Positions 3,752-19,373 of a stretch of 19,373 nt of DNA are shown here, piece by piece (within the stretch, counting starts at the first letter, position 1; every line of letters starts with the position of its first letter). The position numbers and the translations under genes were made by a program. Where the stretch lies: assembly GCA_025774615.1 (NCBI GenBank), contig JALGVQ010000068.1, forward strand, positions 1 to 19,373. The letters are read 5' to 3'. The notes under the pieces are model-generated. The model worked only from the letters and a program-made list of their open reading frames with translations. It had not been told where the DNA came from and searched no databases. The stretch is from a bacterium. Its GTDB lineage: Bacteria; Blakebacterota; Blakebacteria; Blakebacterales; Blakebacteraceae.

Positions 3752-5596
3752 TTATCGTCCCCGGGTACGGGCGTTGCCGAGTACGACCTGGACGGTGAAG
3801 ACCGACTCTCCCCGACGCACCTCCAGTTCAACCCGCTGGCCGGGTGAACCGTCCTGCAGCGCATAGGTGTAATCGTATATGTTCCGGATCGTCCGTTCAC
3901 CCCACCGGAGGATCACATCTCCACCCTCGAGTCCCGCCATGGCGGCCGGACTGCCGTCGTTAACACCGCTGATCGCAAAGCCATCCCCCTGATACCCGAA
4001 ATCGGGGACCACACCGGTATAGACGCCGAAGCCCATCCGGCCGCCGGACTGCTCCGGCTGGGCCGACGGCTGGAACGCCACCATCTCACTCAGTGAATCA
4101 AGCGCGGTCACCACATCACGGATCATGCGGACTATTCTTTCCTGACCAGCGAAATCGAGCAGATCGGTATCATCTGAAGGCCGGTGGTAATCGCCGTGGG
4201 TACCGGTGAAGAAGGCCAGCACGGGGATATCTTTTGTGTAGAAGGATGAATGGTCGGAGGCCCCGAAACCATCGGGGATACTGGTCAACTCGAAATTGAA
4301 TTCGTCACGGCCGTTGAGGTCGTCGAGGAGCGGCTCCCAGGCCGGGCTCGTCCCGGTTCCGTACACCGTGAGCTTTTCATTGGTGAGCCGTCCGATCATA
4401 TCCATATTCAACATCGCTTCGATGGTATCGATCTCTTCCGGCACATTGGAGATAAAAAACGCCGACCCGAGGAGTCCCAGTTCCTCCGCCCCGAAGGCGA
4501 TAAAGAGCAGGTTCCGGCTCGAGGGAGGATCGGCAACGAAGGCCTGTGCCAGTTCGAGGACGCCGGCTGTGCCCGACGCGTTATCATCGGCACCATTGTG
4601 GACGGCAATCTCCCCGGGCTCGAGCGAGCCGTCTCTTCCCATCCCGAGATGATCATAGTGTCCGCCGATCACGATCCAGGGAGCTTGTGGCCCTGCCGTG
4701 GTCAGGGCTCCCACGACGTTATACCCGTTGCGCCGGACCGACTCGAGTTCGACCGCAAGTTCGATCCGGCTCTCGAGAGTCATCGATTCCGGAGTGACCG
4801 ACCCGTCGATCCGGGTATGGAGATCGGTGAGGCCCCCCGTGCTGCCAAGAAGCATTTCCGCTGCTTCGACCGTGAGGGTCACCGCCAGTAATCCGGCTGT
4901 CGAGGGAGAGGAATCGAATCGGAGTGGTTCCAGAAAATCGGAGGGATCGAGCGCAGGGTGCGGTGCGATGAGGATCGCGGCGGCTCCCCGGTCGCGCGCG
5001 ACGGCCGCCTTCCGGCGGAGCGCATGATGGGTGGGGAACCGCATTCCGCCGCCCTCTATCCCGGGCCCGTAGGGGAGCACCAGAACGGCCTTCCCCTCCA
5101 CATCGAGACCGGCGTAGTCGTCATACTCATCCTCTGGTGAGGAGATGCCATACCCGGCGAAAACCACATCGAACGATCCTGAGCCGTTGTCACTGAAAGC
5201 CAGCGGACGCCACTCCTCATCAACCCGGAACCTCACTGACTCTCCTTCGATCGTCAGACCGTTATCCCGGCCAAGAACAACATCCGCCACGAATTCGAAG
5301 GCCTGCAGATAACCACCATCGTCACCGACGGCATCCAGTCCGTATCGCTCGAACTCATTCGCCAGGTAGCGGGCGGCCCGATCGCCTGATGGCGTGCCCG
5401 ACCGCCTCCCCTGAAGCGCGTCCGAAGCAAGCCAGGCAACATGATCACGCAATTCCTCCGAGAGTATCTCCGCATCACTGCTCGAGCCCCGGGGGCCGCT
5501 GCACCCGGAGAGAGCCGCGATCATGATGAGCGTACCCGCAACGGAAGGGATGCACAGGGAACGGGAAAGTGGTGCTATGCTGGATCGTAGTGACAT
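3752..5596 (-). CDS. M28-family zinc metallopeptidase lipoprotein with PDZ domain
   Basis: 614 aa. Signal peptide with lipobox LSGC (Cys32) predicts a lipid-anchored periplasmic or outer-membrane enzyme. A PA-like inserted domain spans ~110-270. The M28 aminopeptidase core shows the two-zinc ligand set: H313 in GGHYDHLG, the Asp pair 337/338 in NGADDNASG, E371/E372 in FGAEELGLLG (general base plus ligand), D399 in NMDMIG, and H471 in THGDYHRPSDDTD. A C-terminal PDZ domain (~528-608; SGVNDGSPAAMAGLEGGDVI) probably binds substrate or partner C-termini. Length and order fit PDZ-bearing M28 aminopeptidases that trim peptides for nutrient uptake. ATG 5596 is the start, with a modest AGG ~10 nt upstream. 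It is divergent from the amidotransferase gene across 5597-5765. Confidence 0.92.
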   Translation of the reverse strand: MSLRSSIAPLSRSLCIPSVAGTLIMIAALSGCSGPRGSSSDAEILSEELRDHVAWLASDALQGRRSGTPSGDRAARYLANEFERYGLDAVGDDGGYLQAFEFVADVVLGRDNGLTIEGESVRFRVDEEWRPLAFSDNGSGSFDVVFAGYGISSPEDEYDDYAGLDVEGKAVLVLPYGPGIEGGGMRFPTHHALRRKAAVARDRGAAAILIAPHPALDPSDFLEPLRFDSSPSTAGLLAVTLTVEAAEMLLGSTGGLTDLHTRIDGSVTPESMTLESRIELAVELESVRRNGYNVVGALTTAGPQAPWIVIGGHYDHLGMGRDGSLEPGEIAVHNGADDNASGTAGVLELAQAFVADPPSSRNLLFIAFGAEELGLLGSAFFISNVPEEIDTIEAMLNMDMIGRLTNEKLTVYGTGTSPAWEPLLDDLNGRDEFNFELTSIPDGFGASDHSSFYTKDIPVLAFFTGTHGDYHRPSDDTDLLDFAGQERIVRMIRDVVTALDSLSEMVAFQPSAQPEQSGGRMGFGVYTGVVPDFGYQGDGFAISGVNDGSPAAMAGLEGGDVILRWGERTIRNIYDYTYALQDGSPGQRVELEVRRGESVFTVQVVLGNARTRGR

Positions 5597-7550: not shown

Positions 7551-8786
7551 ATGAAGAAACTGCTGATACTGGGAGGCGGAACCGCCGGTACGATGGTCGC
7601 GAACCGTCTCGGTCGGGAACTGGATGCCGAAGAGTGGCAGATCACACTGGTCGACCAGGACCCCATCCACTATTACCAGCCCGGGTTCGTATTCGTCCCG
7701 TTCGGGATCTACAAGAAGCGCGAAGAAGTCATCAAACCACGCAAGGGACTGTTCACGCCCAACGTCCGTTTCATCCTGTCTGATATCGACCTGATAGAAC
7801 CAGACAAGAACCAGGTGCGGCTGAAGAAGAACGACACGACTCTTTCCTATGATTTCCTGATCATCGCCACTGGAACCAGCATCCAGCCGGAGGAGACACC
7901 CGGCCTGCTCGGTGATGAATGGCACAAGAGTATATTCGACTTTTATACAGCCGATGGCGCTTTCGCCCTGGCCCACAAACTGCGGACCTGGGAGGGCGGT
8001 CACCTGGTCCTGAATATCGTCGATACCCCGATCAAGTGTCCGGTGGCGCCGCTCGAGTTCATCTTCCTGGCCGACTGGTTCCTGCACGAGCAGGGATTGC
8101 GGGACAAGGTGGAGATCACCTTTGCCACACCCCTGCCCGAAGTGTTCACCAAACCGCGGGCATCGGCCTTCCTCGGCAACCTGCTTGAGGAACGCCGGAT
8201 CAACGTCGAAACTGAGTACCTGATCGAGGAAGCTGACCAGGAGAAAAAGGTGATCCGGTCCTTCGACGGCCGCGAGGTCCCCTTCGATCTGCTGGTGACG
8301 ATCCCGCTGAACATGGGGAGCGGGGTCATCGAACGTTCCGAGATGGGTGACGACCTCAATTACGTGCCGACCGAGAAGCACACCCTGAAACACAAGACCT
8401 TCGAGAACATCTTCGTCCTGGGGGACGCGACCGACCTGCCGACTTCGAAGGCAGGCTCCGTTGCCCATTTTCAGACCGAATCGTTCATCCACAATTTCCT
8501 GCGTTACATCGACGGTATGGAACTACTGCCGACCTTCGATGGCCACTCCAACTGCTACATAGAGACCGGCTACGGCAAGGGAACCCTGATCGATTTCAAC
8601 TACGATGTGGAGCCCCTGCCCGGGAAGTTCCCCCTGCCCGGATTCGGCCCCTTCTCTCTGCTGGAGGAGTCGCGCGTGGATCACTGGGGCAAACTGATGT
8701 TCCGCTGGATCTACTGGCACCTGCTGCTCAAGGGCAAAGAGCTGCCGATCCCGGTCCGGATGAGCATGGCCGGAAAGCGATTGTAA
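7551..8786 (+). CDS. Sulfide:quinone oxidoreductase-like FAD-dependent flavoprotein
   Basis: 411 aa. N-terminal FAD Rossmann motif ILGGGTAGTMVANRLG, ATG motif IIATGTS (105-111) and second FAD motif FVLGDATDLP (288-297) define the FCSD/SQR family of two-dinucleotide-binding-domain flavoproteins. The family oxidises sulfide to zero-valent sulfur and passes electrons to quinone. Two of the three active-site Cys are present: C163 (IKCPVAP) and C335 (HSNCYIE), the pair that carries the sulfane bridge in structurally known SQRs. The Cys normally near position 125-130 is absent (EWHKSIFDFY). A hydrophobic amphipathic C-terminal helix (FRWIYWHLLLKG, ~384-395) fits peripheral attachment to the cytoplasmic membrane. 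ATG start with a weak ribosome site. It is followed within 12 nt by the DUF1641 gene. Confidence 0.9.
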   Translation: MKKLLILGGGTAGTMVANRLGRELDAEEWQITLVDQDPIHYYQPGFVFVPFGIYKKREEVIKPRKGLFTPNVRFILSDIDLIEPDKNQVRLKKNDTTLSYDFLIIATGTSIQPEETPGLLGDEWHKSIFDFYTADGAFALAHKLRTWEGGHLVLNIVDTPIKCPVAPLEFIFLADWFLHEQGLRDKVEITFATPLPEVFTKPRASAFLGNLLEERRINVETEYLIEEADQEKKVIRSFDGREVPFDLLVTIPLNMGSGVIERSEMGDDLNYVPTEKHTLKHKTFENIFVLGDATDLPTSKAGSVAHFQTESFIHNFLRYIDGMELLPTFDGHSNCYIETGYGKGTLIDFNYDVEPLPGKFPLPGFGPFSLLEESRVDHWGKLMFRWIYWHLLLKGKELPIPVRMSMAGKRL

Positions 8787-8798
8787 GGGGGTGTGGAG

Positions 8799-9539
8799 AT
8801 GACGACTACAACCGTCGAAGCATCACTGCAGGAGATCAAGGAACAGCTCACACAGTTGACCGAACAGGTCGACTACCTGAGCCAACGGGCACAGATCGAT
8901 CAGAATCGGTGGGAAACTGTCGAGGATCTTGCCTCCGACCTGAAGCTGGTGGGACAGAGTGCCTTCGAGGGCGCTGTCGAGGAACTGAGCGACCTTGATC
9001 CCGCTGTCTCTCTGGAGGACTCACTCCGGCTGCTGCGTCGTCTGGCTGAGAACACCGGGAATCTCGAATGGACCCTGCAGCAGCTCGAAAGTGTCCGCGA
9101 CTTCGTACGAGACGCCGCGCCGATCGCGTCGGATGCGTTCGAGGCGCTCACTGACCAGTTCGAGGAACTCGATCGGCTCGGAGTGCTTGCTTTCATTCAG
9201 GAGACCTGGCGAATAGGCCAGATCATCCTGACGAGCTTCTCCCCTGAGGACGTCCGGGCACTGGGTGACAACGTGGTGCTCATCCTGAACACCGTGAAGG
9301 GGATGACGCAGCCGGAAATCATGCACATGCTGGGCAACCTCACCGGCGCTTACCGGCATGCGGAAGCTACAACTGATGAATTGAAGACAGGAACCTTCGC
9401 CCTGCTGAAGCAGATGAGGGATCCCGAGGTCCGGCGCGGTCTGGCCGTGACCATGCAGATACTGAAAGGCGTCGCGGGTACTCCGACATCAGACGCCGTT
9501 GACAATGAAAAAACTGAACAGGCCCCTGTGGCAGAGTAA
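8799..9539 (+). CDS. DUF1641 family protein
   Basis: 246 aa from ATG 8799 (MTTTTVEASLQE), preferred to GTG 8793 because AGGGGG (8786-8791) then has a 7-nt spacing; the two differ by two residues. An N-terminal coiled coil (QEIKEQLTQLTEQVDYLSQR) precedes an all-helical body. The C-terminal segment LLKQMRDPEVRRGLAVTMQI, followed by LKGV, is the DUF1641 signature. The family has no proven biochemical activity, but it recurs next to SQR-like flavoproteins and formate-dehydrogenase or sulfur genes, suggesting a scaffold or subunit role. It contains no cysteine, so it is unlikely to carry sulfur itself. It sits between the SQR-like gene (12-nt gap) and the TusE-like gene (20-nt gap) and is surely co-transcribed. 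Confidence 0.85.
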   Translation: MTTTTVEASLQEIKEQLTQLTEQVDYLSQRAQIDQNRWETVEDLASDLKLVGQSAFEGAVEELSDLDPAVSLEDSLRLLRRLAENTGNLEWTLQQLESVRDFVRDAAPIASDAFEALTDQFEELDRLGVLAFIQETWRIGQIILTSFSPEDVRALGDNVVLILNTVKGMTQPEIMHMLGNLTGAYRHAEATTDELKTGTFALLKQMRDPEVRRGLAVTMQILKGVAGTPTSDAVDNEKTEQAPVAE

Positions 9540-9559
9540 GACGAGGAGGAATCTGAACC

Positions 9560-9874
9560 ATGGCAACACTGGAAATGGCAGGAACGTCCCTGGAACTGGA
9601 TGACGACGGGTTCCTGGTGAACCGGGACGAGTGGTCGCGTGAAGTGGCCGAGGAACTCGCGAAAGCCGACGATATCTCTCTGACCGACCGGCACTGGGAG
9701 GTCATCGAATTCGTACGCGGCTGGTACGCCGAGAAGGATGAGTCCCCCACCCTTCGCAGGATCACCAAGGTGGGCGGTATCCCGACCAAAGAACTCTATC
9801 AGCTCTTTCCCGAGGGACCAGGCAAGAAGGTTGCCCGCATTGCAGGAACACCGAAGCCCGAAGGATGTGTCTGA
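9560..9874 (+). CDS. TusE/DsrC-family sulfur-relay protein with a single C-terminal cysteine
   Basis: 104 aa. ATG start with GAGGAGGA (9543-9550) 9 nt upstream. Family signatures are present across the length: LDDDGFLVNRDEWS, LTDRHWEVIEFVRGWY, ITKVGGIPTKELYQLFPEGP and the flexible arm IAGTPKPEGCV. DsrC/TusE proteins carry persulfide sulfur on the penultimate Cys, here C103. The second redox Cys of true DsrC, 11 residues earlier, is replaced by A92 (KKVARIAG), so the DsrC trisulfide chemistry with DsrAB is not possible. By sequence it is TusE-like, yet no tusBCD or mnmA is adjacent; the partner here is the DsrE-like protein 39 nt downstream. Its likely role is a cytoplasmic sulfur carrier for sulfur released by the SQR-like enzyme (inference). 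Confidence 0.92.
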   Translation: MATLEMAGTSLELDDDGFLVNRDEWSREVAEELAKADDISLTDRHWEVIEFVRGWYAEKDESPTLRRITKVGGIPTKELYQLFPEGPGKKVARIAGTPKPEGCV

Positions 9875-9913
9875 GATCCCGGGATACGATCATCAAGAGA
9901 GGAATAATGAACG

Positions 9914-10387
9914 ATGAGTGAAACAACAGGTAACCGCAAGATCGCCATCATCTGCTCGAAGGGGACGCTCGACATGGCCTACCCCGGTCTGGTACTGGCC
10001 AACGCCGCCCGGCAGGCCGGTATCGATGCAATGCTCTTCTTCACCTTCTGGGGACTCGACATGATCACTAAGAAGAAGTTGAGCAAGATGAAAGTGACCC
10101 CGGTCGGCAATCCCGCCATGGGCATGCCGAACATCGTCGGTGTGATCCCCGGTATGACAATGATGGCCACGTCGATGATGAAGAAGAAGATCGAGGCTAT
10201 CGATATCCCGCCGATCGATGAATTCATCGAAATGGTCCATGATGCCGGTGTGAAGCTCTACGGCTGCCGGATGTCGGTCGACATGATGGGCCTGACTGAG
10301 GATGACCTGATCCCCCAGCTCGAAGGGGTCATCACCGCCATGGATTTCATGGATCTCTCAGAAGGCGCCCAGACGATCTTCGTATAG
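9914..10387 (+). CDS. DsrE/DsrF/DrsH-like (COG2210 type) sulfur-transfer protein
   Basis: 157 aa, ATG 9914 with an AGAGGA site upstream; an out-of-frame ATG at 9907 hits a stop after four codons. Alpha/beta DsrE-like fold: IAIICSKGTLDMAYPGLVLA at the N-terminus, a central stretch TFWGLDMITKKK, and the signature VKLYGCRMSVDMMGL near the C-terminus. Two cysteines, C14 and C118, occupy the conserved positions of this group (related to DsrE3/COG2210), in which the latter Cys is the expected persulfide or thiosulfonate carrier. The protein is methionine-rich (about 18 Met in 157), concentrated in GMTMMATSMMKKK (80-92), which may form a membrane- or partner-facing hydrophobic helix. It is the last gene of the sulfur operon, followed by a terminator. 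Confidence 0.88.
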   Translation: MSETTGNRKIAIICSKGTLDMAYPGLVLANAARQAGIDAMLFFTFWGLDMITKKKLSKMKVTPVGNPAMGMPNIVGVIPGMTMMATSMMKKKIEAIDIPPIDEFIEMVHDAGVKLYGCRMSVDMMGLTEDDLIPQLEGVITAMDFMDLSEGAQTIFV

Positions 10388-10455: not shown

Positions 10456-10525
10456 CCACCCGACTTCGACTACACTTCCAGCGAATGATCCAGACTTGGT
10501 CCGGACCACAATCGGAGATTTCGGC

Positions 10526-12814
10526 ATGACACGACGTCCCGGTATTCCACTCCTCCTCCTCTCCTTCTCCCTCGCAACCATGCCGGCCTGCGACAGTCGG
10601 CCGGCGATCGAGCTCACCCGGAACGGTATCACCGACTACCGGATCGTGCTCTCTCCGATGGCAACAGAGGTGGATCGACAGGCAGCATCGGTACTGCAGG
10701 AGTACATCGAGCGGATCTCGGGTGCGCGGATACCGATCGATGAGCGTGGGGAGATATCAGAGACCGGTAACCTCCCGGGCATCCATATCGGGAGCGCCCC
10801 GGCACCACCGGACCTCCCGCTTGAGATCGACTGGGCATCACTTGAAGAAGATGGCTTCAGGATCGTCACCGCGGGTGAAGACCTTATCATCGCCGGCGGC
10901 ACGGCGAAGGGAAGCCTTTACGGCATTCACACCCTGCTGGAATCGTACCTCGGCTGCCGGATGTACGGCCCCGATATGACGATCGTGCCTGAAGAGGCTT
11001 CGATCCGGCTGCCCCCGATCGATGACACGCAGGTCCCGGTGATCCGATTCCGATCGACCCACTACGATCACGCATACGAACAACCGTATACAGGCTGGCA
11101 TAAACTGGATGACGGCAATGTTGACCGCTTCCTCGAATGGAGCACCCGCGTCCACACCTTCAATCGACTGGTGCCGCCTGAGGAATACTTCGCGGATCAC
11201 CCCGACTACTTCTCGGAGATCAACGGAATCAGGGTCCCCGACACCCAGCTCTGCCTCACCAACGAGGATGTCTACCGGATCGTGGTTGAGCGACTGCGCG
11301 AGATGATGGCGGAACACCCCGGCGTGAAATACTGGTCGGTGAGCCAGAACGACACGTACGGCAACTGCCAGTGCGATGAGTGCCGGGCTCTCGATGAGCG
11401 AGAGGGCGGGCCGATCGGATCCCTGCTGACCTTCGTAAACCGGGTCGCGGCCGAGTTTCCTGATCGGATCATCACCACTCTGGCCTACCAGTACTCACGA
11501 TCGGCTCCAAAGACTCTCAAACCAGCAGACAACGTCTGTATCACCCTCTGCAGCATCGAGTGCAACCGGAGCGCGCCGCTCGACGGCGACCCCGGGAATG
11601 CTGCCTTTGTCTCTGACGTACAGGAGTGGTCCGAGATCGCGTCACACCTCTACATCTGGGACTACGTGGTCCAGTTCCGCAACCTGGTCAGCCCCTTCCC
11701 CAACTTCCATGTTCTTCAGCCGAATATCCAATTCTTCGTGGAGAACGGGATCGACGCGATCTTCGAGCAGGGAAGCGGTGGCATCAGGGGGGAGTTCACC
11801 GACCTCCGTTCCTACCTCATCGCTAAACTGCTCTGGAATCCTGATGCTGACGTCGACGCGATCATCGATGATTTCCTCGCCGCCTACTACGGCGAGGCCG
11901 CTCCCTGGCTGCGGCGTTACATCGATACCATGACCCGGGAACTCAAGCGTTCCGGTGAACGGCTCGATATCTACGGCAACCCCTATACCCCGGTCGAGGG
12001 GTACCTCTCCCCCCGCCTGATGGACCGGTATGAACGCCTCCTCGACCGGGCCGAGACAGCTGTGACCGGCTCACCCGATGCACTTCTGCGGGTCAGGCAC
12101 GCCCGGCTTCCCCTCGAGTACGCGCGGCTTGAGCAGGCAAGGCGGTACGGTACCGGTGATCTCGGGTTTTTCGTTCTGGAGAACGGAGCCTGGTCGGTGC
12201 GGCCTGAGATGCGCAGGCGGCTGGATGCATTCATCGCGATGTGCGAGGAGGCCGGATATGACCGGCTCCACGAACATGGCGGGCCGCCTCAGGAGTACCG
12301 GCAGGTCCTGCTCGATCTCTTCGACAAGAGCATGGAGAGCCATCTGGCCCTCTTCAAACCGGTCACCGTGCGCTCTGAATGGAGTCCCACCTATCCGGCG
12401 AACGGGGTCGATACCTTCACGGACGGTCTGAAGGGGATCCCCGATTACACCTGCAACTGGATCGGCTTCGAAGGCCACGACATGGATGTCGTGATCGATC
12501 TGGAGGAGATAACCATGGTCAGCGAGATCTCGACCGACTTCCTCCAGCTCTTCTACTCATGGGTCTGGCTGCCGACGGAGGTGGTCTACTCGGTCTCCGG
12601 GGATGGTGAGAATTTCACTGAGGTCGCCCGGATCACCAACACGGTATCTGATCAGCAGGATGGAGCGTTCATCCACACCTTCAGCGCCCGGTTCACCCCG
12701 GTCGAGGCGCGCCATGTGAGAGTGGAGGCCGTGAACATGAAGGTCTGCCCCGAATGGCACCAGGGCCACCCGGGCAGGTCGTGGATCTTCGCCGACGAGA
12801 TAATCGTGCGGTAG
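10526..12814 (+). CDS. DUF4838 carbohydrate-active lipoprotein with N-terminal glycosidase-type domain and C-terminal discoidin-like domain
   Basis: 762 aa from ATG 10526 (MTRRPGIPLLLLSFSLATM), chosen over TTG 10496 because GGAGA (10514-10518) is 7 nt upstream and the signal peptide then starts correctly. A likely lipidation Cys follows (MPAC, C22). Residues ~30-165 form the alpha/beta domain found before the barrel in GH20 and alpha-glucuronidase-like enzymes (VLQEYIERISGARIPI, AGGTAKGSLYGIHTLLE). The DUF4838 barrel follows with its signatures HPDYFSEING, SQNDTYGNCQCDECRALD and TLAYQYS. The C-terminal ~140 residues (FTDGLKGIPDYTCNWIGFEG, VVYSVSGDGENF, ARHVRVEA) form an F5/8-type carbohydrate-binding domain. 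Likely role: recognition or hydrolysis of a glycan at the cell surface; family activity is not well established. Confidence 0.85.
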   Translation: MTRRPGIPLLLLSFSLATMPACDSRPAIELTRNGITDYRIVLSPMATEVDRQAASVLQEYIERISGARIPIDERGEISETGNLPGIHIGSAPAPPDLPLEIDWASLEEDGFRIVTAGEDLIIAGGTAKGSLYGIHTLLESYLGCRMYGPDMTIVPEEASIRLPPIDDTQVPVIRFRSTHYDHAYEQPYTGWHKLDDGNVDRFLEWSTRVHTFNRLVPPEEYFADHPDYFSEINGIRVPDTQLCLTNEDVYRIVVERLREMMAEHPGVKYWSVSQNDTYGNCQCDECRALDEREGGPIGSLLTFVNRVAAEFPDRIITTLAYQYSRSAPKTLKPADNVCITLCSIECNRSAPLDGDPGNAAFVSDVQEWSEIASHLYIWDYVVQFRNLVSPFPNFHVLQPNIQFFVENGIDAIFEQGSGGIRGEFTDLRSYLIAKLLWNPDADVDAIIDDFLAAYYGEAAPWLRRYIDTMTRELKRSGERLDIYGNPYTPVEGYLSPRLMDRYERLLDRAETAVTGSPDALLRVRHARLPLEYARLEQARRYGTGDLGFFVLENGAWSVRPEMRRRLDAFIAMCEEAGYDRLHEHGGPPQEYRQVLLDLFDKSMESHLALFKPVTVRSEWSPTYPANGVDTFTDGLKGIPDYTCNWIGFEGHDMDVVIDLEEITMVSEISTDFLQLFYSWVWLPTEVVYSVSGDGENFTEVARITNTVSDQQDGAFIHTFSARFTPVEARHVRVEAVNMKVCPEWHQGHPGRSWIFADEIIVR

Positions 12815-14539: not shown

Positions 14540-15514
14540 CTACTCGTGCCCCTGGACAGAGTGAGGAATGTAGAGTTCCTCGAGCCTGTCGAGCTCTTCG
14601 GCCGAGAGAGCGAGTTCCGGGGCACGGATGGCCGCGTCGAGCTGCTCTGCCTTCGTGACCCCGATGATCGGCGCGACCACTCCTGGCTGGTGAAGGAGCC
14701 AGGCGACCGCGGTCGGGTCTTCCCCCCGCTTCCTTGAGACCGCAACGAGCCGGACGATGATGTCGAAGTCATTGAGGGGCTCGTAGATCTTCTTCCCATA
14801 CTCATCGAGCCTCGCCCGCAAGGTCGGTTCCAGCTCCTCGCGGGTGCGGGTACCGGTCAGGAGTCCCCGCGCCAGCGGGCTCCACGGAATGATTCCCACC
14901 CCTTCGCGTACACAGAGGGGGTTCATCTCCCGCTCCTCTTCCCGATAAATCAGGTTGTAGTGGTTCTGCATCGTCTCGAACCGTTCGAGGCCGAGCATGT
15001 CGGAGAGATGGAGCGATTCGGCGAATTGATGGGCCCACATGCTGGAGGCGCCGATATGGTGTACCTTTCCCTGCTGGACCAGATCATCGAGAGCCCTGAG
15101 GGTCTCCTCGATCGGCGTGGTGTAGTCCCACCGGTGGATCTGATAGAGGTCGATATAGTCGGTCCCGAGCCGCTTCAGCGATTTCTCCACCTGCGACACG
15201 ATGTGCTTGCGGGAGAGTCCCCCCTCATTCGGTCCCTCCCCCATCGGGAAATAGACCTTGGTGGCGATCACGATCCGATCGCGATCAGCAAAGTCGGCCA
15301 GCGCCCGGCCGGTGACCTCCTCACTCACTCCCATTGAGTACATGTTGGCGGTATCGAAGAAGTTGATCCCCCCTTCAACCGCCTTCTTCAGGATCGTCCG
15401 AGACTCATCCTCTTCCAGTACCCACTCACGCCACTTCTTCGACCCGAACGACATGCAGCCCAGGCAGACGGGGCTCACCTTGAGGCCGGTCGAACCGAGG
15501 TTGACGTATTCCAT
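14540..15514 (-). CDS. Aldo/keto reductase
   Basis: 324 aa, a full-length single (beta/alpha)8 barrel. The catalytic tetrad is complete: D54 and Y59 in FFDTANMYS, K86 in IVIATKVYF, H127 in LYQIHRWD. NADPH-binding features are present (PIIGVTKAEQLDAAIRA near the C-terminus). The family reduces aldehydes or ketones, commonly sugars and their derivatives, with NAD(P)H. Start ATG 15514 with GGAAGGA upstream. It is the last gene of the minus-strand cluster after GH172/YeiH and the small membrane protein, 44 nt downstream of the latter, so co-transcription is likely. A sugar-derivative substrate released by the GH172 enzyme is plausible but unproven. Confidence 0.9.
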   Translation of the reverse strand: MEYVNLGSTGLKVSPVCLGCMSFGSKKWREWVLEEDESRTILKKAVEGGINFFDTANMYSMGVSEEVTGRALADFADRDRIVIATKVYFPMGEGPNEGGLSRKHIVSQVEKSLKRLGTDYIDLYQIHRWDYTTPIEETLRALDDLVQQGKVHHIGASSMWAHQFAESLHLSDMLGLERFETMQNHYNLIYREEEREMNPLCVREGVGIIPWSPLARGLLTGTRTREELEPTLRARLDEYGKKIYEPLNDFDIIVRLVAVSRKRGEDPTAVAWLLHQPGVVAPIIGVTKAEQLDAAIRAPELALSAEELDRLEELYIPHSVQGHE

Positions 15515-15558: not shown

Positions 15559-15882
15559 TCAGTATTCCCTCTGCCTGTTGGTACCGGAGTACTTCAGCGA
15601 ATCGTGCAACAGCAACCATGCGGGAGCGTACTCCTCGGAATCAGACCACCAGTACGCACCGGCATCTATATCGCGCGCTTCAATAAAAGCCGTCAGCTCT
15701 TCGACCGGCCTGATCCTCGAAAGGAGCGGATCGAGCCCGAACATGAAGAGGAGGATCGCGATGACCCCGAGACCCAGGCGGAACCAGTCACCGGGTGAGG
15801 CTGCATTACGCCTCGTCGTCACGTCTTTGAGGTCAAGCACGACGTCGCTCTCAGTGCCGACATCTGTTACGTGAAATGACAC
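15559..15882 (-). CDS. Small one-TM membrane protein overlapping the YeiH stop codon
   Basis: 107 aa from GTG 15882-15880, which overlaps the upstream TAG by one base (TAGTG), a standard translational-coupling arrangement. A longer in-frame reading to 15972 would lie wholly inside the YeiH gene. N-terminal ~32 residues are polar and charged (ESDVVLDLKDVTTRRNAA). One transmembrane helix follows (~33-54, WFRLGLGVIAILLFMFGLDP), then ~50 residues rich in aromatics and acids (AYWWSDSEEYAPAWLLLHDS). I recognise no family. The position and coupling suggest a subunit or partner of the YeiH-type transporter (inference). No independent ribosome site is visible. Confidence 0.7.
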   Translation of the reverse strand: MSFHVTDVGTESDVVLDLKDVTTRRNAASPGDWFRLGLGVIAILLFMFGLDPLLSRIRPVEELTAFIEARDIDAGAYWWSDSEEYAPAWLLLHDSLKYSGTNRQREY

Positions 15883-17609
15883 TAGATCATCGCCGTGATC
15901 TTCGTGAAAACGACGTAGAACATCAGGTACGCCATCGACAGTGTCAGGATGAGGTTGAAACTCTGCCCGCACACGTAGAGCAGGAGCGGTTTGCCGCCCT
16001 TGAAGTACTCACCCAGTTCACGGAAGTTGGTCGCCAGACCGATGCTCACGAAGGCGAGACAGAAGAACCATCCGCGCAATGTCTTCGAGAGCCCCCCGAT
16101 GACACCCTGATCGATCAGTGTATACCCGACGTCAGCCCCGAGAGCGGCATAGATCACCGAGAAGATGATCGATGCACCGATGAATCCGATAACGAATTTC
16201 GGGAACCGGTGCCAGATCTCCCAGGTGCTGACCCGCTGACCCTCCACGCATTCGACCCGGGCGCACCAGTAGAAAGCCACGCAGAAGGCGATCACACCGA
16301 TCAGGACGTTCTGGATCATCTTGATCGTGGCGGCAACATAGAGGGCTCGCTCGCCCAGGAAGGCTCCCGCCGCGGCGACCGCCCCGGTGGCGTCGATCGT
16401 TCCACCCATCCAGGCCCCACCAAGGATCTCGGGGATACCAACCGCTTTGATGAAAGCCGGCATGACGATCATCATGATCGAGGTGAATACCAGCGACATG
16501 CCGACCGCCAGGGTCAGTTCCTCCTTCTTCGCCCGACAGGCCGCTGCGACGGCGATGGCCGCTGACACGCCGCAGACCGACATATCGGCCGAGATGGTGA
16601 TGTTCAGGGTCTTCGATGGAATCTTGATGACCTTCTGACCGAAGATGTAGGTAGAAACAAGAACGATCGGCGTCACGATCCAGGAGACGAAGATACCAGG
16701 CAGGCCGATCGCCAGGATCTTGCCGAAGAGTATCTCCGCGCCCAGCAGGACCAGACCGGTCTTGATGAAGAACTCGGTCTGGACCGCCGGTTTCACCCAC
16801 TCGGGAGTGCCTATGGTGTTACTGATCAGAAGGCCGAAGAGGATCGCCCAGGCGGCATAGCCGATCCCGTACGCCTTCATTGTCGCCTGTTCCGACGCCA
16901 CATAAGCAAGGATCGCGATCCCGAAGACGAAGAGAAATCCGATCACGAATTTTCGGAATGATCCTCCCATGGCGATGGTACCGATCCCGAAGAAGATGCC
17001 GAGCGCGATTGCCAGTCCGATCAGGTTCACGATCTGGCTGTGCGATGAGACCGTGGCTTTTCTCTTCGCGCTCGAAGCCTCAGTGACCAGGACACGCCAT
17101 TCATCGATGGCACTCACCGCCGCACTGTTCAGGTCGTCGTCTCCGAAACGGGCCATCTGAGCTGCCATCTCCGCTGTGCCCGCCCACAGATGGGCAGCTG
17201 CGACCTCAGCCTGGATCTCTTCGTATCGGGGTTGGGCTGCCGCATTGATCCTGTCCGCGCCCTGTTCGGAAAGGATGAGCGATTCGACAGGGTTCCCCTT
17301 CCACCCATGCGGCTTTCTGATGAAGGAGGCCAGACGTTTTGCCCGGGAAGAGGAGGAAGCCTTGATCGCCGACTTGGTATTCCCGGCCTCGTACCAGGCC
17401 ACAGTGCGGAAGGGCGCCCGGTCCGCTTCAGACTCCATGATCAGATTAGCCGCCGCTATCTGTTCCCGCATCTCCGCCGGAGGTCGGGAGAGAAAAGAGA
17501 CCATACCGATCAACAGGATCAGAAAAGCGAGCCATATGGCCCAGTAATCCTCAAGCCTGATAAGTTCGGCCCACCCCTTGACCTGGTCCGGTTGCGGCAT
17601 CTCTGACAT
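15882..17609 (-). CDS. YeiH-type (UPF0324) putative sulfate exporter; probable independent start
   Basis: 575 aa if translated from ATG 17609 (MSEMPQPDQVKGWAELIRLE); AAGGA (17622-17618) lies 8 nt upstream. One TM (DYWAIWLAFLILLIGMVSFL, ~19-38) is followed by a ~145-residue basic, Ala-rich soluble insert, then about ten TM helices of the UPF0324/PF03601 core: FIKTGLVLLGAEILFG, LNITISADMSVCGVSAAIAV, GGTIDATGAVAAAGAFLGER and AATIKMIQNVL match the family signatures. Typical YeiH is ~330-350 aa; the extra N-terminal TM and insert make a long form. YeiH proteins are called putative sulfate exporters; substrate evidence is thin. It is coupled by TAGTG to the small membrane protein downstream. The long K/R-rich insert suggests it is cytoplasmic. 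Confidence 0.7.
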   Translation of the reverse strand: MSEMPQPDQVKGWAELIRLEDYWAIWLAFLILLIGMVSFLSRPPAEMREQIAAANLIMESEADRAPFRTVAWYEAGNTKSAIKASSSSRAKRLASFIRKPHGWKGNPVESLILSEQGADRINAAAQPRYEEIQAEVAAAHLWAGTAEMAAQMARFGDDDLNSAAVSAIDEWRVLVTEASSAKRKATVSSHSQIVNLIGLAIALGIFFGIGTIAMGGSFRKFVIGFLFVFGIAILAYVASEQATMKAYGIGYAAWAILFGLLISNTIGTPEWVKPAVQTEFFIKTGLVLLGAEILFGKILAIGLPGIFVSWIVTPIVLVSTYIFGQKVIKIPSKTLNITISADMSVCGVSAAIAVAAACRAKKEELTLAVGMSLVFTSIMMIVMPAFIKAVGIPEILGGAWMGGTIDATGAVAAAGAFLGERALYVAATIKMIQNVLIGVIAFCVAFYWCARVECVEGQRVSTWEIWHRFPKFVIGFIGASIIFSVIYAALGADVGYTLIDQGVIGGLSKTLRGWFFCLAFVSIGLATNFRELGEYFKGGKPLLLYVCGQSFNLILTLSMAYLMFYVVFTKITAMI

Positions 17610-19373
17610 GTCTTTATTCCTTGTCGGGGGCCGTATCACCAGAACGCCGTCAGGATCTGGGATCCGCAGGTACCAGCCCCACCCCCCATAGTCATCACCG
17701 ACCTTGATGAGCAGAGTGTTCGCTCCCTGCCTGAGGGAGAGACGAATATGATCCTGATCGGGTTCGGCCGGTCTGTGGAGTACATGGTCATGTACCCGCT
17801 CGCCGTTCAGCCAGAGGCCGACCCAGTCATCGGAACCAAGCAGGCAGTCGACCTCCCGGTCGTCTGGGCTCTCGATCCAGACCGCTCCGTAGGCGCAGCT
17901 CAATTCGTTCGGTATGAAGAGAGCGTCGAGGTTGACGTAACCGTTCTCATCGGTCTCGATCAGGCGCCAGCCGACCTGCTGTCCGTTCATCCCCTCATGG
18001 GTAGCAGAGAGATCGATCTCCTGTTCCGGCGGATAGGGAATCTCCAGGCCGGTGGTGAGTTCACTCCCCTCCTGCCCCGGATTGTCGAACGGCCCGATCA
18101 CCTGCCAGCTGGTGATAAAATTCATGACTGGCTCAAGGCTCACGACATCGATGCCGAACAGGTGCCCGCCGGTCCCGGGATCAGGCCCGACCGGTTCGAT
18201 CTCGAGCGTCGCCGTACCCGGTTCGAGTCTCACCTCCCCCAGCTCGACCCGCCCGGATGGTGAGACCTCGACGTCACTGAGATCGACTACAGATACCAGG
18301 GACTCGCCGTTCACACGGAAGCGTACCGAGCCGTAACCGGGACCCTTCGTGAGGTAGAGCGCGATCACGTAGCGATCGCGGGCCTCGACCGGCAGTTCCC
18401 ATCGCACCGGACCGGTTTCGGCCAGATCCATCCGAACCTGTGTACCCCTGCTCCAGTCTGCGCCAAAGGGACGCATGTCCTCGATCGTCATCGACATCGA
18501 CCGGGCAGGCTGCAGCAGTTCGAGTGATTCCGCTTCAATCGCCCTTTCAGGCAACAGCACCCGCAACGGGAGCCGGGCGTTACCCGGCGGCATCTCCGGG
18601 AAGGGAGCATGCGGTTCCATCTGGTACCAGTAGGCAGTGCTGGAATAGTCCCCCACCTCGGTGTTGGCGTGGCCGTGCTCGATGGTGAACTTCAGAGAGC
18701 GGGTAAAGGGGATGGCGTCGCCGAGATGGTAGCGGTAAGCAGCGATACGGGCGCGTTCCTCATCCTTGATGATCAGGCCGTGGAAGGGGCCCGCATAGAT
18801 CCCCTCGTTGAAATACCAGCCGCTGGTGAAGTAGTCCTCGGTGCCTGTGCCATACATGCACGGTTCCTCGGCGCCGTCCACCCAGACCATCTCATCCCCC
18901 TCGAGGAACCAGAGCTCTCCGTTGTATCCCTGCATACTCATGTTCACTCCCACCAGGTGCCCCTCCCCTTCGGCTTCGAGGATGGTGTAGTTGCGCTCGG
19001 GATCGGTCCTCGGCTCCCGGCGCCACTGAGCGTGGAAATTAGCCACGTCGTCCTCGAGCGGCTGGTGCATCTCCTGGTAGTCGATCTGGTAGTAGAAGGC
19101 ATCCACCTGCCGGCCGGTCTCGTTGACCACTTCGATCCGGGCACGGTTCCTGAAGGGCATCGGCCAGTAGGAGTAGAATCCTCCGCTGGAGATTCCCAGG
19201 TAGTATGAGACGTAGTGGACCTTGTCGAACCCGGTGCCGAAGAAATCTCCCACCGGCACCTCCACGCTCGGAGTCTTCTCATCATCCCAGTACATCCGCA
19301 GGAGTATCCGCCGCAGGTAATGGGGATCGCTGCTCGAGATCGTGACCCAGATGCGGGTGATCACACCCGGCCC
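15882..19373 (-). CDS. GH172 (DUF2961) glycosidase in frame with a YeiH-type sulfate exporter; 5' end off the right edge
   Basis: One uninterrupted frame of 1163 codons plus stop, open at the right edge; the missing start is probably ~80-100 codons upstream. The first ~280 residues are DUF2961/GH172, a family including difructose-dianhydride and D-arabinan hydrolases: LLRMYWDDEKTPSVEVPVGD, FYSYWPMPFR, WFLEGDEMVWVDG, MYGTGTEDYFTSGWYF, GPFHGLIIKDEERARI. A CBM-like beta domain (AIEAESLELLQ to DVVSLEP) and a WQVIGPFDN/PA14-like domain (ending WGWYLRIPDPDGVLV) follow, a usual architecture for secreted GH172 enzymes. Without a stop the frame continues into a complete YeiH-family transporter. I suspect two genes joined by a one-base frameshift, natural or technical; see the junction entry and findings. 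Confidence 0.8.
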   Translation of the reverse strand, partial: GPGVITRIWVTISSSDPHYLRRILLRMYWDDEKTPSVEVPVGDFFGTGFDKVHYVSYYLGISSGGFYSYWPMPFRNRARIEVVNETGRQVDAFYYQIDYQEMHQPLEDDVANFHAQWRREPRTDPERNYTILEAEGEGHLVGVNMSMQGYNGELWFLEGDEMVWVDGAEEPCMYGTGTEDYFTSGWYFNEGIYAGPFHGLIIKDEERARIAAYRYHLGDAIPFTRSLKFTIEHGHANTEVGDYSSTAYWYQMEPHAPFPEMPPGNARLPLRVLLPERAIEAESLELLQPARSMSMTIEDMRPFGADWSRGTQVRMDLAETGPVRWELPVEARDRYVIALYLTKGPGYGSVRFRVNGESLVSVVDLSDVEVSPSGRVELGEVRLEPGTATLEIEPVGPDPGTGGHLFGIDVVSLEPVMNFITSWQVIGPFDNPGQEGSELTTGLEIPYPPEQEIDLSATHEGMNGQQVGWRLIETDENGYVNLDALFIPNELSCAYGAVWIESPDDREVDCLLGSDDWVGLWLNGERVHDHVLHRPAEPDQDHIRLSLRQGANTLLIKVGDDYGGWGWYLRIPDPDGVLVIRPPTRNKDMSEMPQPDQVKGWAELIRLEDYWAIWLAFLILLIGMVSFLSRPPAEMREQIAAANLIMESEADRAPFRTVAWYEAGNTKSAIKASSSSRAKRLASFIRKPHGWKGNPVESLILSEQGADRINAAAQPRYEEIQAEVAAAHLWAGTAEMAAQMARFGDDDLNSAAVSAIDEWRVLVTEASSAKRKATVSSHSQIVNLIGLAIALGIFFGIGTIAMGGSFRKFVIGFLFVFGIAILAYVASEQATMKAYGIGYAAWAILFGLLISNTIGTPEWVKPAVQTEFFIKTGLVLLGAEILFGKILAIGLPGIFVSWIVTPIVLVSTYIFGQKVIKIPSKTLNITISADMSVCGVSAAIAVAAACRAKKEELTLAVGMSLVFTSIMMIVMPAFIKAVGIPEILGGAWMGGTIDATGAVAAAGAFLGERALYVAATIKMIQNVLIGVIAFCVAFYWCARVECVEGQRVSTWEIWHRFPKFVIGFIGASIIFSVIYAALGADVGYTLIDQGVIGGLSKTLRGWFFCLAFVSIGLATNFRELGEYFKGGKPLLLYVCGQSFNLILTLSMAYLMFYVVFTKITAMI
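17607..17630 (-). other. GH172-YeiH junction: hidden TAA, ribosome site and ATG consistent with a one-base frameshift
   Basis: On the minus strand the junction reads CCCCCGACAAGGAATAAAGACATG. The read frame passes through (PPTRNKD, then MSEM). In another frame the TAA at 17616-17614 falls 4 nt before the ATG (17609-17607), with AAGGA (17622-17618) as its ribosome site: a normal gene-gene boundary. One extra C in the C5 run (G5 at 17626-17630 on +) would end GH172 as RPPDKE-stop. Confidence 0.55.

Follow-up and report, generated by a model that had tools for sequence, protein, structure and literature searches.

At one end of a 19,373-nt stretch of DNA from a member of the Blakebacteraceae (hereafter the window, meaning the whole stretch that was analysed), a Pfam search finds a GH172/DUF2961 glycosidase domain and a transporter of the PSE/YeiH family (PF03601) in one and the same open frame. 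This raises the question of whether the two form a true enzyme–transporter fusion or are two neighbouring genes that have been run together. The answer favoured here, with a probability of about 0.87, is an ordinary pair of co-oriented genes whose intervening stop codon and most of whose spacer are missing in this one sequence. A continuous frame in a single metagenome-assembled genome (MAG) is not the same thing as a fusion protein, and caution is needed in moving from one to the other; at this locus, a single neighbour from the same genus is enough to answer most of the fusion question. The stretch comes from a fragmentary MAG, 82% complete and in 324 contigs, and the genomes that can be compared with it include one other from the same genus and two more from the same family, with four in the whole phylum.

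The joined frame and its two parts

As read from the window, positions 15882-19364 of the reverse strand make up a single open frame of 1160 aa with no internal stop, and the frame reaches the window edge at 19373 still open, giving 1163 aa. The sequence-only reading had described one stop-free frame spanning GH172, two accessory beta domains and the transporter, a description that the PF11175 and PF03601 matches and the length of 1160-1163 aa bear out. The GTG at 19364 was considered as the true start and rejected: the gene is cut by the window edge, and its N terminus lies on another contig of the same genome (C157 of G000; L004:1-1605). The end of this contig is identical to the window edge over 114 bp, and the two can be joined, which supplies the missing GH172 N terminus together with a signal-peptide-like segment. 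A homologous N terminus is carried by L033, a locus from a sister genus. C157 also holds a PstS-like gene, identified by eye, that is divergent from the GH172 gene. The features of the locus are collected in Table 1.

Table 1. Features at and around the junction, in window coordinates
Feature	Position	Strand	Basis or remark
Aldo/keto reductase, downstream	14540..15514	(-)	Pfam; same order in L034
YeiH/PSE-family transporter gene, own ATG	15882..17609	(-)	Pfam, orthologues, start signal
PF03601 core, residues 809-1129	15978-16940	(-)	Pfam
YeiH ATG	17609-17607	(-)	Sequence
Junction	17610..17630	(-)	C5 run, ribosome site, out-of-frame TAA
TAA, out of frame	17614-17616	(-)	4 nt before YeiH ATG
AAGGA ribosome site	17618-17622	(-)	8-nt spacing to YeiH ATG
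C5 run (G5 on forward strand)	17626-17630	(-)	Sequence
GH172 (DUF2961) gene	17631..19373	(-)	5' part cut by window edge; rest on C157
Accessory beta-rich regions 1 and 2 (residues about 270-418 and 419-578)	17631..18557	(-)	Homologue alignment, AlphaFold model
GH172/DUF2961 catalytic domain, PF11175, residues 17-248	18621..19316	(-)	Pfam and catalytic Glu alignment

The glycosidase domain matches its family profile from end to end (PF11175, profile positions 1-235 of 235; E 1.5e-83, 280.3 bits against a gathering score of 27). This part of the protein aligns with alphaFFase1 (PDB 7v1v; E 1.1e-56) and also with the exo-alpha-D-arabinofuranosidase 8ic8. In alphaFFase1, E291 is the catalytic nucleophile and E270 the acid/base (PMC8605356); by alignment, the corresponding pair in the window is E176 (codon 18839-18837, in the motif GTGTEDYF) as nucleophile and E155 (codon 18902-18900, in FLEGDE) as acid/base. 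Our best guess from these alignments is a retaining exo-furanosidase that would be exported to the periplasm. The two accessory beta domains that had been proposed fit an AlphaFold model in which residues about 270-578 are beta-rich; built on 16 sequences with a mean pLDDT of 63 and partly of low confidence in this region, the model serves as a guide only. Neither region matches a Pfam family, and such additional C-terminal beta-rich regions are common to homologues from Bacteroidota and Ignavibacteria. In the same model, the last predicted GH172 strand is at residues 576-578 and the tail at 582-586 is disordered.

The transporter matches PF03601 (Cons_hypoth698/PSE) over positions 2-303 of the 304-position profile (E 5e-44, 150.9 bits; cut-off, 24.5). 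Because it scores below the curated cut-off of TIGR00698 (64.6 vs 232.6 bits), it is a PSE-family relative and not YeiH proper, although it is called YeiH below for brevity. Its N terminus consists of a transmembrane (TM) helix (residues 604-630), followed by a soluble basic insert of about 140 aa and then the PF03601 core. A sequence-based structure search with YeiH gave no match. In Salmonella, yeiH confers sulfite resistance (PMC12880088). Purifying selection acts on both parts of the joined frame, as comparison with the same-genus relative by the NG86 method shows: dN/dS is 0.029/0.659 for residues 1-280 and 0.135/0.941 for residues 290-579 of GH172, and 0.087/0.720 for YeiH.

Elsewhere in the window, positions 7551-10387 encode a pyridine-nucleotide-disulphide oxidoreductase along with DUF1641, DsrC-like and DsrE-like proteins, a cluster that suggests sulfur metabolism near the YeiH-like gene. 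Given these DsrC/DsrE-family genes, a sulfur-anion role for the transporter would be reasonable. A DUF4838 protein at 10496-12814, whose weak matches are GH20b/GH67N-like and F5/8 type C, is probably a second glycan-active protein in the window.

The junction in two sister species

Just ahead of the YeiH ATG, the sequence-only reading had noted a ribosome site and a TAA in another frame, and both were located there. As the frame stands, the linker created by reading through is PTRNKD, which has no counterpart in homologues of either GH172 or YeiH. The last folded GH172 residue lies only about 8 codons from the YeiH ATG and, since the genes are also co-oriented, any indel that takes out the stop codon and brings the two into frame could easily yield a joined ORF.

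The sole other genome of the genus (G001, the fragmentary MAG Meg22_46_Bin_213) carries the same two genes at locus L034. Here GH172 ends in VIRPTP-TGA (3825-3827), the stop being at the homologous codon, and the YeiH ATG is found at 3893, after a 65-nt spacer and in a different frame. In both the window and L034 the sequence AAGGAA is present, with the ATG 8 nt after AAGGA; in each species, then, YeiH comes with a translation start signal of its own. The two junctions can be aligned with one 56-nt gap, with 25 of 36 aligned bases matching and 12 of 19 before the ATG, and 56 divided by 3 leaves a remainder of 2, the exact frame offset of L034. No sequencing error is needed, since one 56-nt difference in length accounts for the absent stop as well as for the common frame.

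The version of the gene-pair explanation that we favour somewhat is accordingly a natural stop loss, through a deletion of about 56 nt here or the mirror insertion in L034; because only two sequences are compared, they do not fix the polarity of the gap. The similarity across the junction is also modest, which weakens the case. On the other side, the exact 114-bp overlap between contigs is suggestive of assembly from a short-read graph, and indels in five-base runs would be rare in such assemblies.

The other version, possible but less probable, is a base-call or assembly error. The sequence-only reading had held that a single C added to the C5 run would restore a GH172 stop, and the arithmetic is right: the protein would end RPPDKE-TAA and YeiH would begin 4 nt later. 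The restored stop would overlap the ribosome site, which is a common layout of translationally coupled genes. In the L034 MAG, moreover, GH172 itself is interrupted near residue 286 (L034:2880-3130), where the frame changes through either a base error or a real indel, so that indels, faulty or genuine, are seen in this gene. However, a run of five bases is short for such errors, and the shared frame needs none. A missing C was therefore rejected as the sole explanation, since the 56-nt gap gives both the stop loss and the frame, while the L034 junction contains no C-run at all (and so no six C) and uses TGA in place of TAA.

The two genes in other genomes

In other phyla, 12 of 12 complete GH172 homologues (Bacteroidales, Melioribacteraceae and related groups), which match from residue 1 to residues 575-588, end 0-21 aa after the match. 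The YeiH orthologues at L035, L036 and L007, which come from Desulfobacterales MAGs and G025 and are 56-66% identical, each stand alone as a frame of 589-611 aa that starts at the same place and has the same N-terminal helix and insert. The fetched flanks of these three loci contain no GH172 match; a conserved functional pairing of GH172 with YeiH was therefore rejected, the pairing being found in two genomes of one genus. In a profile scan, PF03601 scored above cut-off in 66 of 386 genomes. A search for further proteins with DUF2961 followed by PF03601 found none: no fetched locus other than the window has the two in one ORF, and in the 65 other genomes no PF03601 frame is longer than 746 aa (the next longest, in G339), compared with 1163 aa in the window. 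Of the earlier proposal of either a fusion or a frameshift-joined pair, the gene pair has thus held up, the genes being separate in L034, whereas a conserved or adapted fusion has not.

A different arrangement is seen in the sister genus, where L033:272-3496 (G002:C181) encodes GH172 in frame with another C-terminal domain (about 390 aa, ECTIGIATGEATSDGRPMIWKTRD...). No credible Pfam or PDB identity was found for this domain, whose start we take to resemble the Cys start of Ntn-hydrolase/C45-type acyltransferases. The same domain is encoded separately both in G001, as a 428 aa frame, and in the window's own genome, as a fragment at a contig edge.

In the gene-pair explanation, a gene for a secreted GH172-family glycosidase would precede one for a PSE/YeiH-family transporter that is extended at its N terminus, and the frames would run together because this one assembled genome lacks the GH172 stop and the greater part of the spacer. 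Because its own start is retained, YeiH is probably made separately, with the conserved AAGGA site most likely directing initiation at the YeiH ATG. The signal peptide would export GH172, a putative retaining furanosidase, to the periplasm, and YeiH would work separately in the inner membrane as a predicted exporter of sulfite/sulfate-type anions.

If the stop loss is real, this locus would offer a fresh example from nature of neighbouring genes merging into one frame, with the downstream gene retaining a start of its own. Alongside YeiH made from that start, some incidental GH172–YeiH chimera could then arise, with a membrane-anchored periplasmic GH172 as a possible by-product. Its topology is plausible, judging from the predicted segments: a signal peptide and an N-out helix would place GH172 on the outer side of the membrane and the basic insert on the inner side. 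That the stop loss is real and that such an anchored chimera also functions beside free YeiH is, taken together, very unlikely. Least probable of all is a selected fusion in which the removal of sugars, perhaps sulfated, is coupled to exporting sulfur anions or otherwise handling them. Although the frame is open, the topology compatible and DsrC- and DsrE-family genes present at 9560-10387, no sulfatase was found among the window genes scanned and the pair was seen in only two genomes of one genus. An adapted fusion was rejected in view of the separate orthologues, the conserved YeiH ribosome site and the fact that no other PF03601 frame was found fused.

Comparison with known systems

We know of no glycosidase that is linked covalently to a transporter of the PSE family, so that an anchored functional chimera, if real, would be the first. 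The closest counterpart of the locus is the pair in G001, which has the same order (GH172, YeiH, a small gene and the aldo/keto reductase) at about 80-85% protein identity, but differs from the window in its separate frames, TGA stop and 65-nt spacer. Among characterized or structurally known GH172 proteins, the alphaFFase1 of Bifidobacterium dentium (7v1v), 8ic8, 4kq7 and 8ah3 share the full-length PF11175 domain with the window protein, and the E270/E291 pair of alphaFFase1 is kept here as E155/E176; in contrast to all four, the window protein adds two C-terminal beta-rich regions. The transporter, for its part, has the full PF03601 core of the PSE/YeiH family (PF03601, TIGR00698), to which it adds an N-terminal TM helix and a soluble insert, as in the Desulfobacterales-type orthologues.
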